Shown here in pieces: positions 2,432 to 27,782 of a stretch of 64,000 nt of DNA (its first letter is position 1; the number at the start of each line of letters is the position of its first letter). Under the pieces are notes generated by a model. That model was not told where the DNA came from. It worked only from the letters and a program-made list of their open reading frames with translations, and ran no database searches. The stretch covers positions 1-64,000 of the forward strand of contig QAZA01000056.1 of the NCBI GenBank assembly GCA_003054695.1, given 5' to 3'. Position numbers and translations under genes: made by a program. The DNA is from Verrucomicrobia bacterium LW23. Lineage in GTDB: Bacteria > Verrucomicrobiota > Verrucomicrobiia > Methylacidiphilales > UBA1321.

Positions 2432-3235
2432 TTAGTCAGGAAGATTCGCGGAGACTGTCTCTAGGTTATCTAAAAGAAAGTTTCCGCTTTCCACCTTTTT
2501 CCTAACTATCAGTTCTGTTTCCATCGGGCGACGAGCTGTGACACAGCACTTTTTGTCGCGTATTAGAACCGCGTATCGCAGAGATTCAGAAAGACTAAAG
2601 CTAGTTCCGGTATGCAACCACGCAATCTTAGAATAGTTAGCAACATAGTTAGGCCACTCCCCTTTGCCGCGATTGCACATTTCACATAGAAATTGCCAAT
2701 TCGTTCCACTTGAAGGGTCATCTCCAAAATGCCAAGGGAATATATGATCCAACTGCATGTTGCTACCATAATGTAGCTCGGTACCGCATGTAGCGCATCT
2801 GCCACACTGTTTTCCCAGGATCTCCTCAAACTTACTTCTATATCGGACTCTAACGTCACTTATAGTATACTTTCTCCTATTTTTCAGAGCCTTATCACGA
2901 AAATTATCTGCATAGTGTTTTAGCGCACTGACCACATCCTCTCTGGCTTCTAAGCCGTAATTTTTTAAATGTCGCCGAATAGCAGGTTTAATGAATTCCG
3001 ACTCTGACTGCAATGCTTCTTCAGGAATCAGTATTGAAAGAATTCGCATCCGAAGAACTTCAAATATCTCATTGTGGATTGCACTTTGCGATAGTTTAAG
3101 TGAATCCAAAAACTTACTATCTAGAAGGTCAACAAGCTTTACTTCTGTTTCACTAGTTGCATTTTCAGATCGTGCAAAGCATCTATTACTAGAATCAAAC
3201 GAAATTAATGATGCAAGATCCATTTCTTTATTCAT
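2432..3235 (-). CDS. HNH endonuclease, candidate restriction component
   Basis: A 267-residue protein with an HNH nuclease module in its second half. C147/C150 and C184/C187 form two CxxC zinc-binding pairs, L162-D163-H164 supplies the catalytic DH, and N179 and N188 occupy the N/H positions. The first 125 residues are helical and match nothing I recognise. It lies immediately downstream of, and overlaps by 8 bases, the DGQHR gene on the same strand, so the two form a unit. HNH nucleases commonly act as restriction enzymes. A role in cutting unmodified or foreign modified DNA is inferred from the Dpd context only. The canonical dpdC-dpdK restriction genes are not visible here. Confidence 0.75.
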   Translation of the reverse strand: MNKEMDLASLISFDSSNRCFARSENATSETEVKLVDLLDSKFLDSLKLSQSAIHNEIFEVLRMRILSILIPEEALQSESEFIKPAIRRHLKNYGLEAREDVVSALKHYADNFRDKALKNRRKYTISDVRVRYRSKFEEILGKQCGRCATCGTELHYGSNMQLDHIFPWHFGDDPSSGTNWQFLCEMCNRGKGEWPNYVANYSKIAWLHTGTSFSLSESLRYAVLIRDKKCCVTARRPMETELIVRKKVESGNFLLDNLETVSANLPD

Positions 3236-4799
3236 CTCTAAAAAGTTTGTGATTAGTAGTGCTTAGACCATCGTAAATATCACCAAAGTAATCACGTAAA
3301 GCTGCCTTCCCATCGGGATGATTCAAAGATCCTCTCCAGGGTTTAGTAAAATGCTTCTTCTCAAACTTTTCTAAGTATTTGTCTACTACCTTCGAATACG
3401 TTTTCATTATCTCCGCCTTGCGATCTGAGGAGTCGACGTCCTGAAGTTCAACCATCGACAGCATGCCGGAAGCTTTGATAAAAAATACTTCTTGGAAGAT
3501 AAGTAATCCTACTGCCGTCATTAGTTGACTTCCGTGGGGCACCCACATTCCGAGAGGCGCAAACTTTTGCTGAACTTTCTTCCAAAACTCTAGGAAGAAG
3601 GTGAACCAGTCAAGAGCTGTCGGGTCTTGCCACTTCTGAAACATAGTTTTCTTGGATAGCTTCTTTCCATCAGTTTTTTGGTAAAGCATCCTCATCAATT
3701 GATCTAAAGCCGCATTTTTACTCGGCTCGTACCACTGTTTTCCGAGGGTCTTCATCGTTTGATACCCCAGACCTTTTTGCGAATTGGCCCCAACTTTAAA
3801 TTCAATTAGTCCATTAAACGGACTTTCTTGAAAAAGACCGATTCGTTGCATTACCTCAACCTCCCACAGTTGCACACCAGCCTGAGAAAGCCTTTCAGTT
3901 AGCTTCTGTAATTCATCACCTGTTAGCGACATGCCTGCAAGCGCTGTGATAAACGGCTTAGGTATACCCTCTGCTCGGTCATTTATTACAGCAAATTGAA
4001 ATACTTGCTCCCTCCATTCAGGCTCCACCAATGCACATGCAAGAAACGGAATGTTTTCTTCTACCGAAGCGGCGCCAAATAACCTATGCTGACCATCGAT
4101 TACGAGGGCCGGTTTGAGCATGTCACACAACGTAGAGTATAGTTCATCTGTGACTTCCTCATCATGATCTAGTTTATCACGGAGCTTCTGAAGTATAGAG
4201 GTGCCAATTTCTAACGGTTGGTCTGGGCTGTCATCACCTTCTAAGTTATCTTCTTCCTCTGACTGTTCCTCTACTAGCGGCTCTAGGTAATCTGCACTTT
4301 CTTCTACGCTTTCACTTTGTGCAGCTTCAGCGTTAGCCTCCGCATCTTCATCTTTATCTATTTTCTTATTCTCATGAAGGCGCTGATCTAAAAATGATTT
4401 GGCCAAGCTGATGACTTCCGTTCGCTCAAGCTGCTCAGGAACACTATATTCAACCGAAAGCTTTTTGAACTCAATGCCAGGTAATTTGATACTATCATCG
4501 CCTAACTTGAGCGTGGTGAATTTAAATTTTGCGATCTCATTCTCATGTAGACTTAATACGATTGCTGTCGGAGAACAGTTTTGAGGTATGAGAAAGAACT
4601 TTTTTAGTTCCTCTGACACTCTTTTTTTATCGATAGCACGTTGATAGTTTGCTAAATTATGCTCACTTTTGCGAGCGACGCCACATAGATCGACAAGACG
4701 ATCAGAGGATGCTACGAATGCAAATAGCTCTGGTGACTGGGCATTTTGACGATATGAGAGCCCATAGAATTCGTACGTCTTAGTTTTTTCGGTACTCAT
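3228..4799 (-). CDS. DGQHR-domain protein (DndB/DpdB-like)
   Basis: A 523-residue protein containing the DGQHR signature at residues 235-239 (ALVIDGQHRLFGA). DndB-type DGQHR proteins regulate or assist DNA sulfur-modification and Dpd systems. Its N-terminus aligns by eye with DpdB across the road (ELFAFV, NYQR), but a strongly acidic, low-complexity insert at about residues 148-195 separates the N-terminal part from the DGQHR part. The long C-terminal half has no motif I recognise. It is the first gene of a two-gene unit with the HNH nuclease, with stop and start overlapping. Partner of the nuclease or transcriptional regulator are both possible; the sequence does not decide. Confidence 0.7.
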   Translation of the reverse strand: MSTEKTKTYEFYGLSYRQNAQSPELFAFVASSDRLVDLCGVARKSEHNLANYQRAIDKKRVSEELKKFFLIPQNCSPTAIVLSLHENEIAKFKFTTLKLGDDSIKLPGIEFKKLSVEYSVPEQLERTEVISLAKSFLDQRLHENKKIDKDEDAEANAEAAQSESVEESADYLEPLVEEQSEEEDNLEGDDSPDQPLEIGTSILQKLRDKLDHDEEVTDELYSTLCDMLKPALVIDGQHRLFGAASVEENIPFLACALVEPEWREQVFQFAVINDRAEGIPKPFITALAGMSLTGDELQKLTERLSQAGVQLWEVEVMQRIGLFQESPFNGLIEFKVGANSQKGLGYQTMKTLGKQWYEPSKNAALDQLMRMLYQKTDGKKLSKKTMFQKWQDPTALDWFTFFLEFWKKVQQKFAPLGMWVPHGSQLMTAVGLLIFQEVFFIKASGMLSMVELQDVDSSDRKAEIMKTYSKVVDKYLEKFEKKHFTKPWRGSLNHPDGKAALRDYFGDIYDGLSTTNHKLFRDE

Positions 4800-5003: not shown

Positions 5004-5447
5004 TTATTTGTTTCTGACTGGAGTTAGGCGGACTGAATTTTTTTCATCTTCATGAAGCTCCAATTCGTTAATCCAAACACGATTTCCCTCGTTTGCCTCA
5101 ACTAATTCAGAAATTTTCAAGTAAAGATGCTGTGCTATTCCTTCACATGAAGCATTGTCCACCCAATAAGGTTTAAAGATGCCCTTCGGTGAGCTACTAA
5201 TGATTGAATGAGCTAGCGGATCATGATTCGAGAAAATGCACGCGTGATCGAGATGCTCGTCAAAATACTCTTTAATGTACTTTAGATTGCCAAAATCAAC
5301 GACAAAGCCATTATTATCAAAATGGCTACATGCAAAGGTAATTTTTATTGCCCAGTTATGCCCATGAATACGTGAGCACGGACCTGGATGGAGATGTTGC
5401 CTATGCGCAAACGGAATGTCGCCATAATATTTAGAACATGTGATCAT
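5004..5447 (-). CDS. queD: 6-carboxy-tetrahydropterin synthase QueD
   Basis: QueD converts dihydroneopterin triphosphate to 6-carboxytetrahydropterin, the second step from GTP to preQ0. The 147-residue protein has the family's usual length and its zinc and catalytic motifs. These are the N-terminal FAH, then the PCSRIHGHNW segment (catalytic Cys followed by HGH), and LDHACIF in the middle. It begins 10 bases after the end of queC on the same strand, so the two are one operon. FolE and QueE, needed for the first and third steps, are absent from the window and must be upstream or elsewhere in the genome. Confidence 0.9.
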   Translation of the reverse strand: MITCSKYYGDIPFAHRQHLHPGPCSRIHGHNWAIKITFACSHFDNNGFVVDFGNLKYIKEYFDEHLDHACIFSNHDPLAHSIISSSPKGIFKPYWVDNASCEGIAQHLYLKISELVEANEGNRVWINELELHEDEKNSVRLTPVRNK

Positions 5448-5457
5448 AAAGATTTAC

Positions 5458-6159
5458 TCAACCTTTTGTGGGTCTAAGTAAGCATGTTTCTATTGGTGGA
5501 GCATCGGATTCATAAATAGTAGGGTCTTCTAACTCAGCCAAATAAAATGCTTCACGCCTTTCCACACAAGTTCCACATTTTCCACAGTGTAGTTCATTGC
5601 CTTTATAGCAGGACCAAGTTCGAGAAAATGGTACCTTTAGTTTCGCCCCTAGCTTTGCAATATCAGTTTTGGCAAGATTCACAAAAGGTCTGTTCAAGGT
5701 TACGGAATGCCAGTCTGCCAGCGACATTACATGATCCATCCCCGCAGCAAACTCATCTCTACAATCAGGATAAATAGCGTGGTCACCGCTATGGGCTCCA
5801 TAGGAAACCGAACCAGCTTTTATAGAAATGGCCCACCCTGTCGCTATGGCCAGAAGAATCATATTGCGATTAGGAACCACAGTTGTCTTCATATTTTCCT
5901 CAGCATAGTGACCTTCTGGAATCTGAATATCAGGTGACGTTAAGCTGCTTCCAGCAAGAAGATCTGAGATTGATCGTAAATCGGCTATCCTGTGTTCGAC
6001 GCCTAATTCTGCACATATAGAAGCGGCGTGCTTCAACTCCTTTGAATGTTTCTGGCCATAATTGACTGATAGGGCACGAACTTGATGCCCGTCTTCCAGC
6101 AAATGGTAAAGTAAGACCGTCGAATCCATCCCACCCGAGTAGACTGCCACGGTATTCAT
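5458..6159 (-). CDS. queC: 7-cyano-7-deazaguanine synthase QueC
   Basis: QueC uses ATP and ammonia to convert 7-carboxy-7-deazaguanine to preQ0, the base donated to tRNA or to DNA by TGT-like enzymes. The PP-loop SGGMDST near the N-terminus binds ATP. The C-terminal Cys cluster ([16 protein letters not shown]) is the family's zinc site, and the length of 233 residues is normal. I place the start at the ATG at 6159 rather than the TTG one codon earlier. It is the first gene of the queC-queD unit and lies 174 bases from the end of the polymerase fusion. Its location beside dpdA suggests dedicated preQ0 supply for DNA modification. Confidence 0.92.
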
Positions 6160-6333
6160 CAACCAACTATTGACGTCTCTCCAAGAGATGCAAGGTCAAA
6201 ATACTTGAACAGAAATGATTTGGGATGAATTGGTGCTGCTAGTAATGATGAAATATTAGCCAGGTAAACTGTCTTTCCGGGTGAGGAAAAAGTCTTCTGT
6301 CCTTCTCCAAAAATTAGAATGAGAATAGCTACT

Positions 6334-9300
6334 CTAACTCGCTGTTAATCCTCTTGGCTGATTTATAACTGTTGCATCAAGCGAATTTCCAATTCCACTT
6401 TCGTAGGAATTGACTATACCTCTTATTTCCACAATAGGATATCGCACTGTGTTGATACCCGAACGCTCATAGGCATCCGCAAATATCTCTACTTCTGCAA
6501 TCCCGGTGGGATCACAAATGGAGATGAATTTCATCGTTCGGCCATCCACTTGATGATGCAACCTGTCTTCAATAATGAGTCCCGCCACTGTCACAGTTTG
6601 GCCAGGGAAACTGCCTATTTCGACAATGGGGCAGTAGCTTTCCCACGCGATTTCAGGAAATTGCTCAAGGGGATGACCACTTACAGTAAAGCCTAAGATT
6701 TCCATCTCAGCACGTAGTCGGTTCAAATGCTCGGGCTCTGATCGGACTGCGGGGGCTTCATCATGGAAGCCGAGTGGTAGGAGTGACTGATAGAGGCTTT
6801 CCGTTTTGAATGCGGCGCATCTTCGCCAGGCCCAGTATTGGGAAGTGCGGCTTGGATCCAGCGAATCGAAGCAGCCAACGCGGATCATGCTCTGCATTTC
6901 GTCATCCTGGGGTTTCACGCGCGTGCAGAAGTCTTCGATAGACTCGAAGGGATGCTCGGATCTTGCCTCGGTAATCCTCTCGAGACTCGCCTCAGTGAGG
7001 CCCTTGACCTGCTTGACTGGAACTCGAATACCTTGCACCTCAGGGTAGAACCTGTCCCATGAGTTGTTGATATCTGGGTGGAGGAAGCCTATGCCGAGGC
7101 TCCGGCACTCTATGGAATAGACGAGTCTGCTGTAGAACCCTTTTCCGTGTTCCAATACGTTGCAGAGGAACTCCTTTGGATGATTTAGCTTTAGACTGGC
7201 CGCCTGAAATGCCTCAATCCCGTACGCGGTGGAGTGAGCTCGGCAAAAGGCGTAGCCGCGAAACCCTACAAGCAAATCACCCACGGTTTTGATCTCGGAC
7301 TCCGACCGGCCAGCTTTTCGGGCGTAGTCGACAAATTCCCGGAGCATTTCTTCGATTTTGTCTATCTGCACTTTTACCAGAGCGCGCCGCAGCATGTCGG
7401 ATCGGCCTGGTGGCATATCTGCAAATGCCTCGCAAATTTCGAGCACGTGTTCTTCATATGCAACGACTCCGTAGGTGCTTGCCAACACCTTTTCCAGAGA
7501 GGGATGTGTGTAGTCTGGTTGCTCAAGTCCCTGGCATCGGCGCGCGAATTGCGTCTTTTTGAGACCATTAGCGCCGCCAGGACGAATAACTGAAACTATG
7601 GCGATTAAGTCATCGATTCGGCGCACTCCGCACATTTTGCTCAGCGAAAGCATGGCTGGACTTTCGATGTGATGGACTCCGCGACATCCACCTTGTGCTA
7701 TCATGCGCCAGATCTCCTCGTTCTCCCATGGTTCCAGCGACTTCAGATCCGTATGGATGCCTTTCGACTCCAGGATGCGCGTTGTATCGCGCATGACGGC
7801 CAGGCCAGCCTGGGCGAGGATATCCATCTTCACGAGACCAACATCCTCAACTGAATCCATGTTGAGATGGGTCGTAGGCCATCCCTTGCCGGATATAAAT
7901 GTTGGCGTCAACGAGTGGATCGGATCTCGCGATAACACCACGCCACACGGATGCATTTTTGGATGGCGGGGATAGCCATCGAGTCGGAATGCAAGCTCCA
8001 GGGCAGTCTTATAAGGATCTTCACCGAAGATTGAGTCACCGCATTCAACGGATTCGGCCACTGCCTGCGCCACATCGGTTGCCGAGGTACGGGGAATGCG
8101 TTGTGTAAGCCGGCGTATCTGGCTTTCCGAAACGCCCAGCACTTTCGCAATATCGCCAAACGACGAGCGCCCTTGATACGTATTGAAACCGCCAACGATG
8201 GCTGCATGAGGACCATACTTGGCCAGTATTGCTTCAACTACTTCGTCTCGCCTGTCATGAGGGAAATCGATGTCTATGTCCGGCAGTTTCCGCAGCGCCA
8301 TGCGATCGCGGTTAAGAAATCTTTTGAAGTACAGGCTGAACCTGACTGGACATACGTCCGAGATTCCCAAACAGTAGCAGACCAGCGAGTCTGCCGCGCT
8401 GCCTCGGGTAATCCAGTCGATTCCCATTCGCTTGCAGTCTTCAAGAATGTCCCAGCACAGGAGGAAGTACTCGTCATAACCGACCTCCGCAATGATCGAG
8501 AGCTCTTCCTCAACCTGGCTTCGCACCCGGTCAATAAGATCAGGCTTCTTTCCGTAACGCCTCTCCACACCTTCAAGTGTCAGGTGGCGAAGAAATTGAT
8601 TCGGCGTCGAATTATCAGCAGGCTTGTAGTGGGGAAATTTCAAGCCTCCCCACTCGAACTTAAAACGGCATCGTTCCAGCACCTGGTGGAGTGTTGAACT
8701 TTCCATCCCAAGCTCGCCACGGAAGTGGAATCGTCCATTCCGCTTCTCAGGATGCTTGTCATGAAGCAAAGTCAGAGTGCGTATGCTTTGGACAATATTG
8801 TAAAAGCGGATGTCTTCTCGCTCCGGATAGCGGACTTCAGGACCGCAATCGCAGACCGGCACGAAAACTAATCCTTTGCCGTGCGCACGTAACCTATCCT
8901 GCGTCAGCTTCTCCGTGGACAACAAGGCGCAAAGGTTGCAGTAGCCTTCAGCATCCTCTACGTACGCGTTGACGGCAGGAGCATCTACCGGCAAAAGCTC
9001 CGCCGCAATGATGGCGCGGATGCCTGCTTTTTCTGCTGCCTGGCAGATTTCAACGGCGCCATGAAGGTTTGGATCAGTAACGGCGATGGCGCTCAGATTG
9101 TGTTTCTTTGCCAGAGCAACTATGTCCTTGGGAGAAAGGAGCGAGTCGAGAAACGAGTAGTAACTCTTGAAATTGAGGATGGCGGTAAGTGCTTCCGATT
9201 TTCGTGGACTTGCTAGGGTACTTATGGGCGCGGCAGCCTTCTCGGTAGTCTTTATCGGCCTACCATCGGCTTTGGCTTCCTGCTGGCGAAGCCAAAGGTC

Positions 9301-10434
9301 ATGCCCTCTCATGATCGATCGATTGCCGAATTCTCCACGGATGGAATCTACCGCAGCAGAGAGATCCAGTTTGCGGCCCTGTCCCATAGTCGAGCAGACG
9401 CCATCAAGCTCGTCGTCGAACAACGCGTCGTAGACTCCACTGAGCTTCACCGAAACCAATCGCAAGCTTACCCGGCGTGACCATGCTTTGCGGAGAAGGA
9501 CGGCAAGCAACGCATAGATATCCGCCTCGTAGGATGTTGGTTCATCCAGGCTTTGGGATCTGCCCTCTTCCTCCATATCATTGTAGCGCACTCGGACGCT
9601 CACGGTACGCACCATTTTCCCATCACTGCGAACTTTTGCCATCAACTTGTCTGCGATGGATCTCAACTTTGCTATAACATAGGTCTCGTCTGTTTGATCG
9701 ATGACAAAGGTCTCCTGAGAGCCGTAGCTTTTGGCTGCGGGCGCTTCCGGCACGACAGGACGATCATCAATTCCCTGGGAGAACTGCCAGAGCTGGGGCG
9801 CCATGTTGCCCATGATAAGTGCCAGTTGATCCGGTTTTGTCAGGGCAATCTGCCCAATAAGCGAAAGACCCGCTGCGTTCAACCCTTGCGAGACTTTGGG
9901 ACCAATACCGGGCAGCCAGGTATTGGCGAGCGGCGCAAGGAAGTCCTTCTCACGGCCTTCTCTTACGTGGATGAGGTTGTCCGGCTTCTTAAATTTTGAG
10001 GCGATCTGGGAAACCAGCTTATTTGATCCCACACCTTCGCTGACCGTAATCTTGAGCGATTCCCGGATTGCCTTGCGAACTGTCACGGCAATGGATTCGG
10101 GATCATGCTTGCTGCCACGTACGCAAAAATAGCCTTCATCGACGCCTTGCACTTCCACGGTCGGCGTGAAGTCGTAGACATAAGTAAACATTCGCCTGGA
10201 GAAGAGTTCGTATTTCTCGAAATCTCCAGGAAGGACAATCAACTTCGGGCAGAGCTTCAATGCCCTGGCGGTCGGCATTGGGGTATAAACGCCGAAACGA
10301 CGCGCCTCGTAAGATGCAGAAGCGATGATTCCTCGCTTCGTGCCACCAACAGCAATGGCTTTTCCACGAAGCTTTGGATTCGCGGCCGCCTCGACCGAGG
10401 CGAAGAACGCGTCGGCATCCAGATGCACAATCAT
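6334..10434 (-). CDS. DinB (Y-family) - DnaE (C-family) DNA polymerase fusion
   Basis: A single 1366-residue protein joins two polymerases. Residues 1-385 are a Y-family DinB-like enzyme with all catalytic acids visible (D6, D8, D99, E100), a helix-hairpin-helix at 173-200 and a little-finger domain. After a linker (about 386-414) comes a DnaE-type alpha subunit. Its PHP region (about 415-480) lacks the usual H-x-H and reads TDPNLHG where active domains have TDH, so proofreading is probably lost. The palm acids D719, D721, D723 and D871 are present, and a C-terminal OB fold ends the protein. Family logic links it to the ImuB-DnaE2 mutasome, here in one chain and with an apparently active Y-family half. 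It follows the S24 gene by 15 bases, pointing to damage-inducible translesion synthesis. Confidence 0.88.
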   Translation of the reverse strand: MIVHLDADAFFASVEAAANPKLRGKAIAVGGTKRGIIASASYEARRFGVYTPMPTARALKLCPKLIVLPGDFEKYELFSRRMFTYVYDFTPTVEVQGVDEGYFCVRGSKHDPESIAVTVRKAIRESLKITVSEGVGSNKLVSQIASKFKKPDNLIHVREGREKDFLAPLANTWLPGIGPKVSQGLNAAGLSLIGQIALTKPDQLALIMGNMAPQLWQFSQGIDDRPVVPEAPAAKSYGSQETFVIDQTDETYVIAKLRSIADKLMAKVRSDGKMVRTVSVRVRYNDMEEEGRSQSLDEPTSYEADIYALLAVLLRKAWSRRVSLRLVSVKLSGVYDALFDDELDGVCSTMGQGRKLDLSAAVDSIRGEFGNRSIMRGHDLWLRQQEAKADGRPIKTTEKAAAPISTLASPRKSEALTAILNFKSYYSFLDSLLSPKDIVALAKKHNLSAIAVTDPNLHGAVEICQAAEKAGIRAIIAAELLPVDAPAVNAYVEDAEGYCNLCALLSTEKLTQDRLRAHGKGLVFVPVCDCGPEVRYPEREDIRFYNIVQSIRTLTLLHDKHPEKRNGRFHFRGELGMESSTLHQVLERCRFKFEWGGLKFPHYKPADNSTPNQFLRHLTLEGVERRYGKKPDLIDRVRSQVEEELSIIAEVGYDEYFLLCWDILEDCKRMGIDWITRGSAADSLVCYCLGISDVCPVRFSLYFKRFLNRDRMALRKLPDIDIDFPHDRRDEVVEAILAKYGPHAAIVGGFNTYQGRSSFGDIAKVLGVSESQIRRLTQRIPRTSATDVAQAVAESVECGDSIFGEDPYKTALELAFRLDGYPRHPKMHPCGVVLSRDPIHSLTPTFISGKGWPTTHLNMDSVEDVGLVKMDILAQAGLAVMRDTTRILESKGIHTDLKSLEPWENEEIWRMIAQGGCRGVHHIESPAMLSLSKMCGVRRIDDLIAIVSVIRPGGANGLKKTQFARRCQGLEQPDYTHPSLEKVLASTYGVVAYEEHVLEICEAFADMPPGRSDMLRRALVKVQIDKIEEMLREFVDYARKAGRSESEIKTVGDLLVGFRGYAFCRAHSTAYGIEAFQAASLKLNHPKEFLCNVLEHGKGFYSRLVYSIECRSLGIGFLHPDINNSWDRFYPEVQGIRVPVKQVKGLTEASLERITEARSEHPFESIEDFCTRVKPQDDEMQSMIRVGCFDSLDPSRTSQYWAWRRCAAFKTESLYQSLLPLGFHDEAPAVRSEPEHLNRLRAEMEILGFTVSGHPLEQFPEIAWESYCPIVEIGSFPGQTVTVAGLIIEDRLHHQVDGRTMKFISICDPTGIAEVEIFADAYERSGINTVRYPIVEIRGIVNSYESGIGNSLDATVINQPRGLTAS

Positions 10435-10449: not shown

Positions 10450-11052
10450 CTATGTGCGACGAACCAAAGCCACCATTACGCCTTGAACAACCAGTTCCCG
10501 GGCCGGAACGATAGCGCGGAACCGAGGATTTTCGGCCTTTAGAAACGGCCTTCCGCTACGCAGGAAGTAGCGCTTTAATGTCATTTCCCCATCAACCAGA
10601 GCCGCAACCACCGCGCCATCATAAGGCGACTTAAACTCAAGGATCACCACATCTTTATCCAGGATTCCCGCTCCCACCATGGACTCGCCGCAGACCCGAA
10701 CCGCAAAGGTCCGGGCGTTGTTCGGAATTCCAATCGAACTGATGTCCACACCAATGCACCCGTCATCTTCCTGGCATTGCCCCCAGGGAGTTCCTGCGGG
10801 GATCGTACCCAAAATCGGAATCAGAACGTAGCTGGCGGGCAGAGGGGAGACCGTTGAACGCCGTGTGAACGCATGAATATTTACGGAGGCATTCCGAGTG
10901 CATTCCGATGAACGTGTATTCGCGGTCACATCACTTTGAATATTTCTCCTTGCATCATCGCAATCGATTGGAGATAAGGGGTTAATCTCGTCCGCTTCTG
11001 CTCTTGAATCCAGAACATCGTCCTGGCACAGCGGGGAGAAAGAAATATTCAT
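10450..11052 (-). CDS. S24-family self-cleaving protein (LexA/UmuD-like)
   Basis: A 200-residue protein whose second half is a serine/lysine autoprotease of the LexA/UmuD family. Numbered from the ATG at 11052, the A86-G87 cleavage bond sits in TIPAGTPW, the nucleophile is S124 in CGESMVG and the general base is K160 in MTLKRY, closely matching LexA spacing. The first 75 residues are polar and show no recognisable helix-turn-helix, so it is more like an extended UmuD than a standard LexA. A TTG start at 11076 would add eight residues but would run through the dyad at 11057-11084. It is the first gene of a unit with the polymerase fusion, so it may gate that enzyme's activity after RecA-stimulated cleavage. 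Confidence 0.8.
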   Translation of the reverse strand: MNISFSPLCQDDVLDSRAEADEINPLSPIDCDDARRNIQSDVTANTRSSECTRNASVNIHAFTRRSTVSPLPASYVLIPILGTIPAGTPWGQCQEDDGCIGVDISSIGIPNNARTFAVRVCGESMVGAGILDKDVVILEFKSPYDGAVVAALVDGEMTLKRYFLRSGRPFLKAENPRFRAIVPARELVVQGVMVALVRRT

Positions 11053-11056
11053 ACGA

Positions 11057-11084
11057 CCACTATTAGCCTTATCCAAAATAGTGG
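11057..11084. promoter_or_regulatory. Candidate damage-response operator (8-bp dyad)
   Basis: CCACTATT at 11057-11064 and AATAGTGG at 11077-11084 are perfect inverted arms 12 bases apart, ending four bases before the ATG of the S24 gene. Position and symmetry fit an operator for the S24-polymerase unit and possibly for the divergent DUF72 gene. It does not match the E. coli or Bacillus SOS boxes, so the assignment to LexA is inference. Confidence 0.45.
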
Positions 11085-11199: not shown

Positions 11200-12165
11200 A
11201 TGCTCGGCGGACTATTCCGAGAATTCCCGTTACACCGTTTCTCGACCAGACTTCGTGAATTGGCGGCAAACGGAATTTATCTGGGAACCAGCAGTTGGAA
11301 GTATCCGGGATGGGTCGGAATGCTCTATGAGGAGCAGCGCTATCTGGTCCGCAATCGATTCTCGCTTAAGCGTTTCGAAGAGCAGTGCCTGAGTGAATAT
11401 GGGGAGACGCTGAGCACTGTCGGAGTCGATTCGACATACTATGCATTCCCTACGACTGAAAGCCTCGTGAAGTTGTCTGATCAAGTACCAGATGGCTTCA
11501 AGTTTGGCTTCAAGGTAACAGACACCATTTCGCTGCGCCGCTTTCCCCGGATTAAGCGATATGATTTCACTGCCGGCCTCGAAAACCCAGGCTTTCTCAA
11601 CGCAGATCTCTTCGTCGAGAGGTTTCTCGGTCCGTGTGAGCAAATTCGCGACAAGGTCGGCCCTCTCATGTTCGAGTTCAGCAGCTTCGAAGAACAGGGG
11701 GTAGAGAGAGAGGAATTCCTGGAGAAGCTGGAAGCGTTTTTTGCGAAGCTACCCCCAGGCTGGCTATACTGTACCGAGATCCGTGACTCCCCTTTGCTTG
11801 GGGAGGCGTATTTCTCGATGCTGGCTCGGTATGGTGTCGGCCATGTGTTCAACTCCTGGACCGCAATGCCACCGGTTCTTGCTCAACTGGATTTGCCCGG
11901 AAGCGTCGCGGGAAATTGCGTGGCAGCCCGATTCTTACTTCGCCCCGGTAAGACCTACGCGAAAGCCGTCGAGCGTTACGAACCGTTTGATCGGACGCAC
12001 GACATCTATCCCGATGGCAGAAAGGCTATTCGACACATGATCGATATGACTGTCCCTGCGAACGGATGTAAACGCGTTCCGAAATTTCTTTTCATCAATA
12101 ATCGGCTGGAGGGCAACGCATTAAATACAATCCTCGCGACCATTCAGGGAGAGAATACCACTTAA
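11200..12165 (+). CDS. DUF72 (YecE-like) family protein
   Basis: A 321-residue TIM-barrel-type DUF72 protein, recognised by the opening GTSSWKYPGW, then TVGVDSTYYAFPT and GFKFGFKVTD. No biochemical function is established for this family. The gene is divergent from the S24-polymerase unit with a 147-base gap that holds the dyad at 11057-11084, so it may share the same control. No membrane segment or signal peptide is visible. It converges on the relaxase gene. Confidence 0.75.
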   Translation: MLGGLFREFPLHRFSTRLRELAANGIYLGTSSWKYPGWVGMLYEEQRYLVRNRFSLKRFEEQCLSEYGETLSTVGVDSTYYAFPTTESLVKLSDQVPDGFKFGFKVTDTISLRRFPRIKRYDFTAGLENPGFLNADLFVERFLGPCEQIRDKVGPLMFEFSSFEEQGVEREEFLEKLEAFFAKLPPGWLYCTEIRDSPLLGEAYFSMLARYGVGHVFNSWTAMPPVLAQLDLPGSVAGNCVAARFLLRPGKTYAKAVERYEPFDRTHDIYPDGRKAIRHMIDMTVPANGCKRVPKFLFINNRLEGNALNTILATIQGENTT

Positions 12166-26156: not shown

Positions 26157-27782
26157 TTATTCGTCATCTAACTCGCTATCTTCGTGGTCATCATCAACTG
26201 GCTCATAATCCCAAAAATCAGATTGAGAATAATCTGAATCCGTTTCTTCATCGCCTTGAGATGTATTTCTGCTAGCTCTGCTAGTGCTAAAAATGTAGTG
26301 CAGAACATTAACATCAAGGAATGAGACGCCGTGCTGCCTTAGCGCGGCAAAATCAGGATCTAATGATATAACGTCAACCCCAGCAGTGTTTCTTAGCCAA
26401 CCTTTTACAGAAGCTTCATATGTCATTAACCAATGCGGGCCACGCAAGTTTTCTTGTGTTATAAAAGAATTAAGGGTATCAAAAACGGTTGGAGTAGCAA
26501 CCTTCCCGATGGATCTTAAATAAAGAGCCATGAGGAGGCAAACGGGATCTTGCATTTCAACTAATAGAGAGCAACAATTTGCATCCAAATGGAGCCCGAA
26601 AATGATATGTCCCCATAGACTCCAAGCTACTTCACTAGAATGACCTCGTGGCGAGTTAGATTCAATCAAATAGGTGAGGCATGGGTGAACTTTGGTCCCA
26701 ACTTCGTTGATTCGAGTGGGGTCTCGGACTAACGATGCTAACACAAACGGCAAAACTCCAGGCTCGATAAATGCTGATCGGATCAATAAATCTTCTAATA
26801 TTGTTCTATTGGCGGTGTCGATTGTTAAATATCTCATTCTACCACATAAGAACTTTAAGACATTTTCACCTGGATAACTATCTCTGAATGAAAAGGCCTT
26901 TTCAAAGCTGGATACTAATTCTATTTTTTGGCGTCTTGCGTTTCCCGAAAATCTTATAAGGTTTAATGCATTCACCCAATCGGTATTTAGCTTTTTTGCA
27001 AAATCCGGTGTTAGCTTCTGGGTTTTTAAACTGTTGACATCCAGTTGATAATGGCGAAATATATTAAATAATTTATTTTCAATCAAATCGGCTTCTTGCA
27101 TATTTCGGCAAGCAAAAAAATAATCATCGACGTAACGAATTCCTTTGATGTTACCAATTTGAGCTAATTCTTCGTCAATAGCAGACAAAAGAATTTCTGA
27201 TACAAGTAAAGATATATCAGGCCCTGTTGGAATACCAATAGTCTGCTCGTCTTGACAATTGCGTATCAGTAAATCTAGATGGTTACCTAAAAGTTGAGTC
27301 GGAAAACGATACTGCTTTGCAGTGGCTTTAGTATGCATCGCCCATGGGATGGCATGGGTGTATATGGAGCTGTAAAATTTAGCAATATCTGTCGTGAATA
27401 TAATTGGAGCTTGCGATGCTAAACTTAATTTGAGATAAGGAAGTTCTGAAAGCGAGGTGGCTCTTTCGATGGCTCTTCGTGTAGAAACAATTGGTGAAGA
27501 TTTTGAGAATCGTGATCTTTGAGTTTGCCTCTCCAAAGCGGACCAATTCTGGCTGACAAAAGTAGCTAACCTAAAGTAAGAAATTGGGTTTAAAAGATCA
27601 AGTTTTCGACGCAAATGACCCGCTCTTACCAAATCATAACTTCCAGGCTTTGTCCCTTTTTTGTAATCCGGAAACGTATTAGGGGCTTGTAGACCGAACT
27701 GTCCAAAACTATGACTTTTAAAGCATGGAGGGAGTTCACGCGGCAAAAAGCCGTATCCGAGAAGACGTTCTAGGCTAGCCAT
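26157..27782 (-). CDS. Defence-type reverse transcriptase (UG/Abi-like)
   Basis: A 541-residue reverse transcriptase. Motif A is FTTDIAKFYSSIYTHAIPWA (D132), the next motif is GIPTGPDISLL at 183-193 and the catalytic YVDD is at 217-220. The opening GYGFLPRELPPCF and the YTHAIPWA segment are typical, as I recall them, of the 'unknown group' and Abi-type RTs that act in phage defence. The C-terminal 230 residues are helical and end in a very acidic tail. There is no maturase domain and no group II intron around it. I cannot fix the subtype; a second RT, as in two-RT systems, is not present. The gene is strikingly AT-rich, suggesting recent insertion between the regulators and the conjugation genes. 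Confidence 0.75.
   Translation of the reverse strand: MASLERLLGYGFLPRELPPCFKSHSFGQFGLQAPNTFPDYKKGTKPGSYDLVRAGHLRRKLDLLNPISYFRLATFVSQNWSALERQTQRSRFSKSSPIVSTRRAIERATSLSELPYLKLSLASQAPIIFTTDIAKFYSSIYTHAIPWAMHTKATAKQYRFPTQLLGNHLDLLIRNCQDEQTIGIPTGPDISLLVSEILLSAIDEELAQIGNIKGIRYVDDYFFACRNMQEADLIENKLFNIFRHYQLDVNSLKTQKLTPDFAKKLNTDWVNALNLIRFSGNARRQKIELVSSFEKAFSFRDSYPGENVLKFLCGRMRYLTIDTANRTILEDLLIRSAFIEPGVLPFVLASLVRDPTRINEVGTKVHPCLTYLIESNSPRGHSSEVAWSLWGHIIFGLHLDANCCSLLVEMQDPVCLLMALYLRSIGKVATPTVFDTLNSFITQENLRGPHWLMTYEASVKGWLRNTAGVDVISLDPDFAALRQHGVSFLDVNVLHYIFSTSRASRNTSQGDEETDSDYSQSDFWDYEPVDDDHEDSELDDE

Follow-up and report, generated by a model that had tools for sequence, protein, structure and literature searches.

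A protein joining a Y-family polymerase to a DnaE-type polymerase in one chain is encoded on the minus strand (6334..10434) of the 64,000-nucleotide stretch analysed here, positions 1 to 64,000 of contig QAZA01000056.1 from Verrucomicrobia bacterium LW23 (hereafter the window). Judging from its sequence and that of its neighbour, this PolY-DnaE fusion is probably an SOS-type translesion mutasome in one chain: a seemingly active, putatively RecA-binding Y-family polymerase joined to a proofreading-deficient DnaE, with the S24 autopeptidase encoded by its operon-mate acting as its UmuD. The first-pass annotation had already described DinB and a DnaE-type polymerase on a single chain, and the open reading frame (ORF), which runs uninterrupted from 10434 to 6334 (1366 aa, ATG start, no internal stops), agrees with this. 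That two-polymerase outline was right; the S24 partner (10450-11076) and a RecA-NT motif within the fusion had gone unreported, as had the MobF and type IV secretion genes that neighbour the window copy.

Domain architecture

All features of the fusion are minus-strand features. Residues 1-340 (9415..10434) form a Y-family (DinB/Pol IV-type) polymerase domain, in which Pfam finds IMS (5-147, 5e-41) and IMS_C (235-334, 4e-19) and which carries the catalytic acids D6, D8, D99 and E100. Pfam matches in the DnaE half are PHP (422-511, 1.5e-12), DNA_pol3_alpha (614-874, 2e-66), the finger domain (878-1041, 2e-29) and HHH_6 (1114-1197, 6e-20); palm, thumb and fingers together cover residues 614-1041 (7312..8595), with palm acids D719/D721/D723 and D871, and the helix-hairpin-helix domain lies at 6844..7095. 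Both halves score well above noise in NCBIfam, yet under the equivalog cut-offs of the standard Pol IV and alpha-subunit models; for the Y-family half, the Pol IV models reach 247-265 bits against 58.8 for the UmuC model. We also modelled residues 1-1200 with AlphaFold2 (mean predicted local distance difference test score, pLDDT, 78.6; predicted template modelling score, pTM, 0.61). The closest fold matches to the DnaE half are DnaE structures (alpha subunits, Z 32-40), and residues 1-336, a low-confidence part of the model, best match Pol IV structures.

Distribution of the fusion

To find further proteins with both domains, we scanned 84,980 species' genomes with a profile of the junction (residues 301-493), which matched 120 relatives, and took the best 80 of these 120. 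Single-ORF matches to DinB plus DnaE were found at 88 of the examined loci (a few of which duplicate one another), and 72 near-full-length single-chain fusions, window copy included, were aligned for all conservation counts below. Judged by their labels, the relatives are practically all Verrucomicrobiota, one of them a single-cell genome (L115); a few are labelled Klebsiella, Acidobacteria or plain bacterium, which look like metagenome labels. Five further single-chain homologues from related genomes are 51-59% identical to the window copy from end to end. In a sample of the phylum, a profile search found the fusion in only 4 of 388 genomes, namely the window's own and G267, G373 and G416 (where the match spans both parts), the remaining profile matches being lone DinB or DnaE PHP regions; a census with a single-sequence query found two others among the 388. 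Since so few sampled genomes carry it, the fusion is widespread but sporadic in Verrucomicrobiota. No fusion was found in the viral contigs searched, no phage record covers 80% of the fusion query, and in those plasmid records covering 80% of the query that were examined, the polymerases are separate genes, none of them fused.

One could suppose that a sequencing or assembly error had fused two separate genes, and one genus (g6) does have polY and dnaE as two genes about 494 bp apart. However, both of our trees (described below) place this split genus within the clade of fusions, and full-length single-frame homologues occur in dozens of independent assemblies, the single-cell genome among them. 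Because of these homologues, a missed stop, a frameshift or a chimeric assembly, any of which would have undone the first-pass annotation, is excluded, and the chance of an artefact is negligible.

Two irregular copies were also seen. On contig C55 of the same genome as the window, locus L040 (8281-9567) holds a broken second copy of the fusion (residues 77-167, 79% identical) that runs into tyrosine-recombinase-like sequence. At locus L042 (6981-8768, genome G007), Y-family residues 1-262 are joined to histidine-kinase/receiver-like sequence, behind an S24 gene without a helix-turn-helix (HTH) domain; either the copy has been broken or rearranged, or the assembly is wrong at this point.

Catalytic state of the two polymerases

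The first-pass annotation listed intact acids in the Y-family part (residues 1-385) and in the DnaE palm, and these prove to be features of the whole family: D6 and D8 are invariant wherever the alignment column has letters (70/70), and D99, E100, D719, D721, D723 and D871 are invariant in all 72 fusions. Its proposed pairing of a seemingly live translesion polymerase with an error-tolerant DnaE on one chain therefore not only stands but recurs among relatives. Still, one half might be just a scaffold (the Y-family half as in ImuB, or else the DnaE half), with the other half alone polymerising in the cell. The Y-family partner is such a dead scaffold in the ImuA-ImuB-DnaE2 and Streptomyces systems (PMC12926913), and in the ImuB-like protein of the host itself the N-terminal acids are missing. 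But scaffolds lose their catalytic acids, while the four Y-family and four DnaE acids of the fusion persist among proteins of which even the six closest share only 51-59% of their residues with the window copy, and we consider a scaffold role for either half improbable. Both polymerases instead look to be selected for activity.

The PHP region (residues 420-583, 8686..9177) matches the fold of the alpha-subunit PHP region, is shorter than in most relatives and is probably inactive. As had been noted, it lacks the H-x-H and TDH motifs, reading Y-Y-S and TDP instead. TDH is lost in 72/72 fusions and H-x-H is kept in only part of the family, so that PHP proofreading by the fusion is unlikely; proofreading-competent DnaE, in contrast, has an intact PHP metal-site motif.

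The junction between the polymerases

Behind the Y-family domain, residues 353-376 (RKLDLSAAVDSIRGEFGNRSIMR) match the N-terminus of the host's own RecA with a score of 51, the best match within the first 640 residues; none of 5000 shuffled sequences scored as high (best shuffle 50). The RecA-NT-like motif as a whole covers residues 353-383 (9286..9378, RKLDLSAAVDSIRGEFGNRSIMRGHDLWLRQ), and R366, G370, R376 and H378 are conserved across the alignment. RecA-NT motifs have been described in the Y-family subunits of mutasomes (PMC6511836, PMC12926913).

The motif is followed by a flexible inter-polymerase linker (residues 391-415, 9190..9264) that is predicted to be disordered (pLDDT <50), and the segment equivalent to residues 383-419 varies from 27 to 101 aa among relatives. 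A beta-clamp-binding peptide had been suspected in this linker (residues 386-414), but none was found in this variable and predicted disordered segment. At the clamp-motif position of DnaE, relatives instead have QGW[LI][LI], with Q in 63 and W in 54 of the 72 fusions, and by comparison with this consensus the window's clamp-binding-like peptide would be QSLLPL (residues 1216-1221, 6772..6789). We infer that the clamp-like motif of the fusion lies in the DnaE half and that the linker has none.

The S24 partner gene and its promoter

A gene for a UmuD-like S24 autopeptidase (10450..11076; PF00717, 4e-15; alternative ATG start possible at 11049) precedes the fusion on the same strand, 15 bp away. 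Its product matches LexA and UmuD structures and keeps the A-G cleavage site and the catalytic Ser and Lys. The LexA repressor has an N-terminal winged HTH, whereas none was found in the window protein by Pfam or by a genome search with PF01726. Of 81 fusions with visible upstream DNA, 64 have a same-strand S24 gene within 800 bp upstream, and 49 within 100 bp. The gene at this place mostly encodes a complete LexA in the relatives, winged HTH included. At L028/L042 and L091/L148, the partner has likewise no HTH, and again the A-G cleavage site and Ser/Lys pair are kept. The sister fusion of the window copy, L027 (support 99), has a full LexA, so the HTH was lost in the window separately from the loss in L028. 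In the split genus g6, only a stub of some 105 aa is left of the partner; it overlaps polY and lacks the cleavage site, Ser and Lys. Separate losses of the HTH, with an S24 core or stub retained in the operon, are what retention as a polymerase subunit predicts, and the series of full LexA, HTH-less autopeptidase and stub parallels that of LexA, UmuD and UmuD'. At both L148 (4563-5348) and L091 (4851-5648), an SRAP-like gene (MCGR start) lies directly upstream of the HTH-less S24 gene and the fusion.

We also searched the upstream regions for TGTTC-N4-GAACA, which we take to be the LexA box of Verrucomicrobia, a motif supported here by its enrichment in relatives only. A perfect site lies upstream of 8 of the 64 S24 genes and, among the 15 fusions that no S24 gene adjoins, directly upstream of 4, compared with 0 of 3200 shuffled regions. 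Several of these loci are closely related to one another (L114/L115/L117; L116/L125; L053/L057/L059), so the independent cases are fewer than counted. In other promoters, variants of the palindrome stand at about the same place; at L030, L031, L034 and L042, for example, TATAC-N4-GTATA and TATTC-N4-GAATA palindromes precede the S24 gene near the LexA-box position, which suggests that LexA specificity may have drifted among these operons. The host genome has four perfect TGTTC-N4-GAACA sites, hardly more than the three of a reversed-pattern control, and encodes two LexA proteins with HTH elsewhere.

Several observations weigh against the fusion being an SOS-type mutasome with the S24 protein as its UmuD. 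The upstream region of the window copy contains no palindromic LexA box; its best site (TGGTCGTATGAATA) agrees at 8/10 positions, as about one in ten shuffled regions would by chance, and SOS-type boxes therefore support regulation in the relatives only. The window's clamp-like peptide deviates from the consensus of its relatives. The Y-family palm was modelled with low confidence and the overall pTM is 0.61, so the model does not fix the relative placement of the two halves. A nearby S24 gene is wanting in 17 of the 81 fusions, and where the partner is a whole LexA, as in most relatives, a repressor alone would explain the linkage.

The S24 neighbour may be a mere local repressor or LexA remnant rather than a polymerase subunit, a possibility for which both the full LexA of most relatives and the upstream LexA boxes speak. 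However, an HTH-less repressor has no obvious reason to stay, and in at least three lineages without the HTH the S24 core, cleavage site and catalytic pair remain in place; even the split genus retains its catalytically dead 105-aa stub overlapping polY. We thus find the repressor or remnant explanation unlikely, if worth serious consideration, and favour the S24 protein as a UmuD-type subunit of the fusion.

Relationship to known mutasomes

The first-pass annotation set the fusion against the known mutasome of separate ImuA, catalytically dead ImuB and DnaE2. The fusion does differ from it, but two-gene systems of active PolY and DnaE have already been published for Bacteroidetes, where the putative DnaE2B-PolY-RecA mutasome of Cellulophaga algicola is an operon of this kind (PMC6511836 Fig. 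8; PMC12926913). Both this system and the fusion have a seemingly active Y-family polymerase with RecA-NT and an active accessory DnaE (for the fusion, as judged by conserved residues and motif), and their DnaE halves group together (99). DnaE2B-PolY-RecA consists of two genes, with no UmuD/LexA subunit named in the paper, while the fusion of Verrucomicrobiota is a single chain whose operon-mate is an S24 gene. A genome without imuA/imuB is a mark of the DnaE2B-PolY-RecA type, whereas the LW23 genome has an ImuB-like/DnaE2 pair (contig C50) and carries the fusion in a mobile region. In Emticicia and Chryseobacterium plasmids, dinB adjoins dnaE.

Like the fusion family, ImuA-ImuB-DnaE2 combines a Y-family protein with an accessory DnaE under LexA-type control. 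However, its Y-family subunit (ImuB) is inactive, whereas the fusion keeps D6, D8, D99 and E100, is one chain, has its DnaE half in a different clade and has no ImuA that was seen adjacent. In Pol V (UmuD'2C-RecA), as here, the gene of an S24 autopeptidase directly precedes that of a Y-family protein carrying a RecA-NT motif, and the window S24 protein has the cleavage site and Ser/Lys pair of the Pol V partner. The Y-family protein of Pol V is UmuC-type, though, while that of the fusion is DinB-like by score, with a DnaE polymerase in place of the UmuC C-terminal tail. MucAB and RumAB are plasmid-borne forms of Pol V, and the window fusion is similarly carried by a conjugative element. SamAB is another plasmid-borne form (PMC3901139). 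With DinB/Pol IV the fusion shares the Y-family domain and fold; it differs in falling under the NCBIfam equivalog cut-offs and in adding RecA-NT and the DnaE extension.

Our trees were quick and contain some long branches, and their support values come from the Shimodaira-Hasegawa-like approximate likelihood ratio test (SH-aLRT) only. The DnaE half is placed with the DnaE of Bacteroidetes PolY operons and Desulfosarcina (SH-aLRT 99), and the DnaE2 of imu operons forms a separate branch (99), where a Streptomyces DnaE2B-type sequence also fell, on a long branch. Both trees put the split genus among the fusions, moderately supported (92, 90), a position that speaks for a later fission more than for a pre-fusion state.

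The main text of PMC12926913, which distinguishes 11 mutasome types, describes none that is a fusion or that combines PolY, DnaE and UmuD. We found no published description of the fusion in the open-access literature searched (supplements and subscription papers were outside the search). What is new here is the covalent PolY-DnaE fusion together with its LexA/UmuD partner; active PolY and DnaE operons were already known.

Genomic setting

The window encodes a MobF relaxase, coupling protein, ArdC, TrbI and a TraG-like ATPase, gene content that marks the region as a conjugative element (plasmid or integrative and conjugative element, ICE). The fusion might then be the element's replication polymerase, used to copy the conjugating element, whether plasmid or ICE, and not for lesion bypass, since the window copy adjoins relaxase and type IV secretion system genes. 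Elsewhere, however, most fusions are not beside a relaxase, with a weak match in only one of the other loci searched, and their usual place is a lexA operon, in some cases with a clear SOS-type promoter. A degraded PHP region and a Y-family half also suit low fidelity, not replication. We regard an element replicase as very unlikely, well behind a translesion role for the fusion.

S24, QueC and DUF72 genes surround the fusion; no ImuA was seen adjacent, and no search aimed at ImuB-C was made. PADLOC gave no match for the fusion. Genes for 7-deazaguanine DNA modification (Dpd) occur at one end of the window (DpdA, 45-1310, and DpdB, 1300-2424, both plus strand; DpdB-like, 3228-4799, minus strand), and QueD/PTPS-like and QueC genes (5004-6162) adjoin the fusion; these are probably cargo of the element. 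The DUF72 gene (11200-12165, plus strand) points away from the S24 gene and the fusion. Another 13 loci of the family have a DUF72 match, and a Desulfosarcina plasmid has the gene order lexA-DUF72-polY-dnaE; an SOS-linked role for DUF72 is possible. The conjugative region also contains a reverse transcriptase (RVT_1) ORF of 541 aa (26157-27782, minus strand).

Proposed mechanism and significance

In the mechanism we propose, DNA damage would activate RecA, which would cause the S24 partner to cleave itself at the A-G bond and would dock on the RecA-NT helix of the fusion, while the chain would be tethered to the sliding clamp through its DnaE half. One active site would then insert opposite the lesion and the other would extend the distorted end, with the flexible tether favouring hand-over between them. 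Such direct hand-over of the primer end between the halves, which the first-pass annotation had suggested, is plausible as a conjecture.

It is a standing question of translesion synthesis whether, at a lesion, one polymerase inserts and a second extends directly after it; two polymerases tethered 1:1 by nature, each with a site that can be mutated on its own, allow a direct test. More tentatively, and with somewhat less than even confidence, we suggest that this is a phylum-wide single-chain enzyme with two active sites and internal hand-over from insertion to extension, and that the LexA of the operon itself repeatedly gave rise to its UmuD-type subunit by losing the DNA-binding domain. A LexA-to-UmuD series within one operon family would show, in living sequences, a repressor turning into a polymerase subunit, and would give the mobile elements of Verrucomicrobiota a counterpart of plasmid-borne Pol V.

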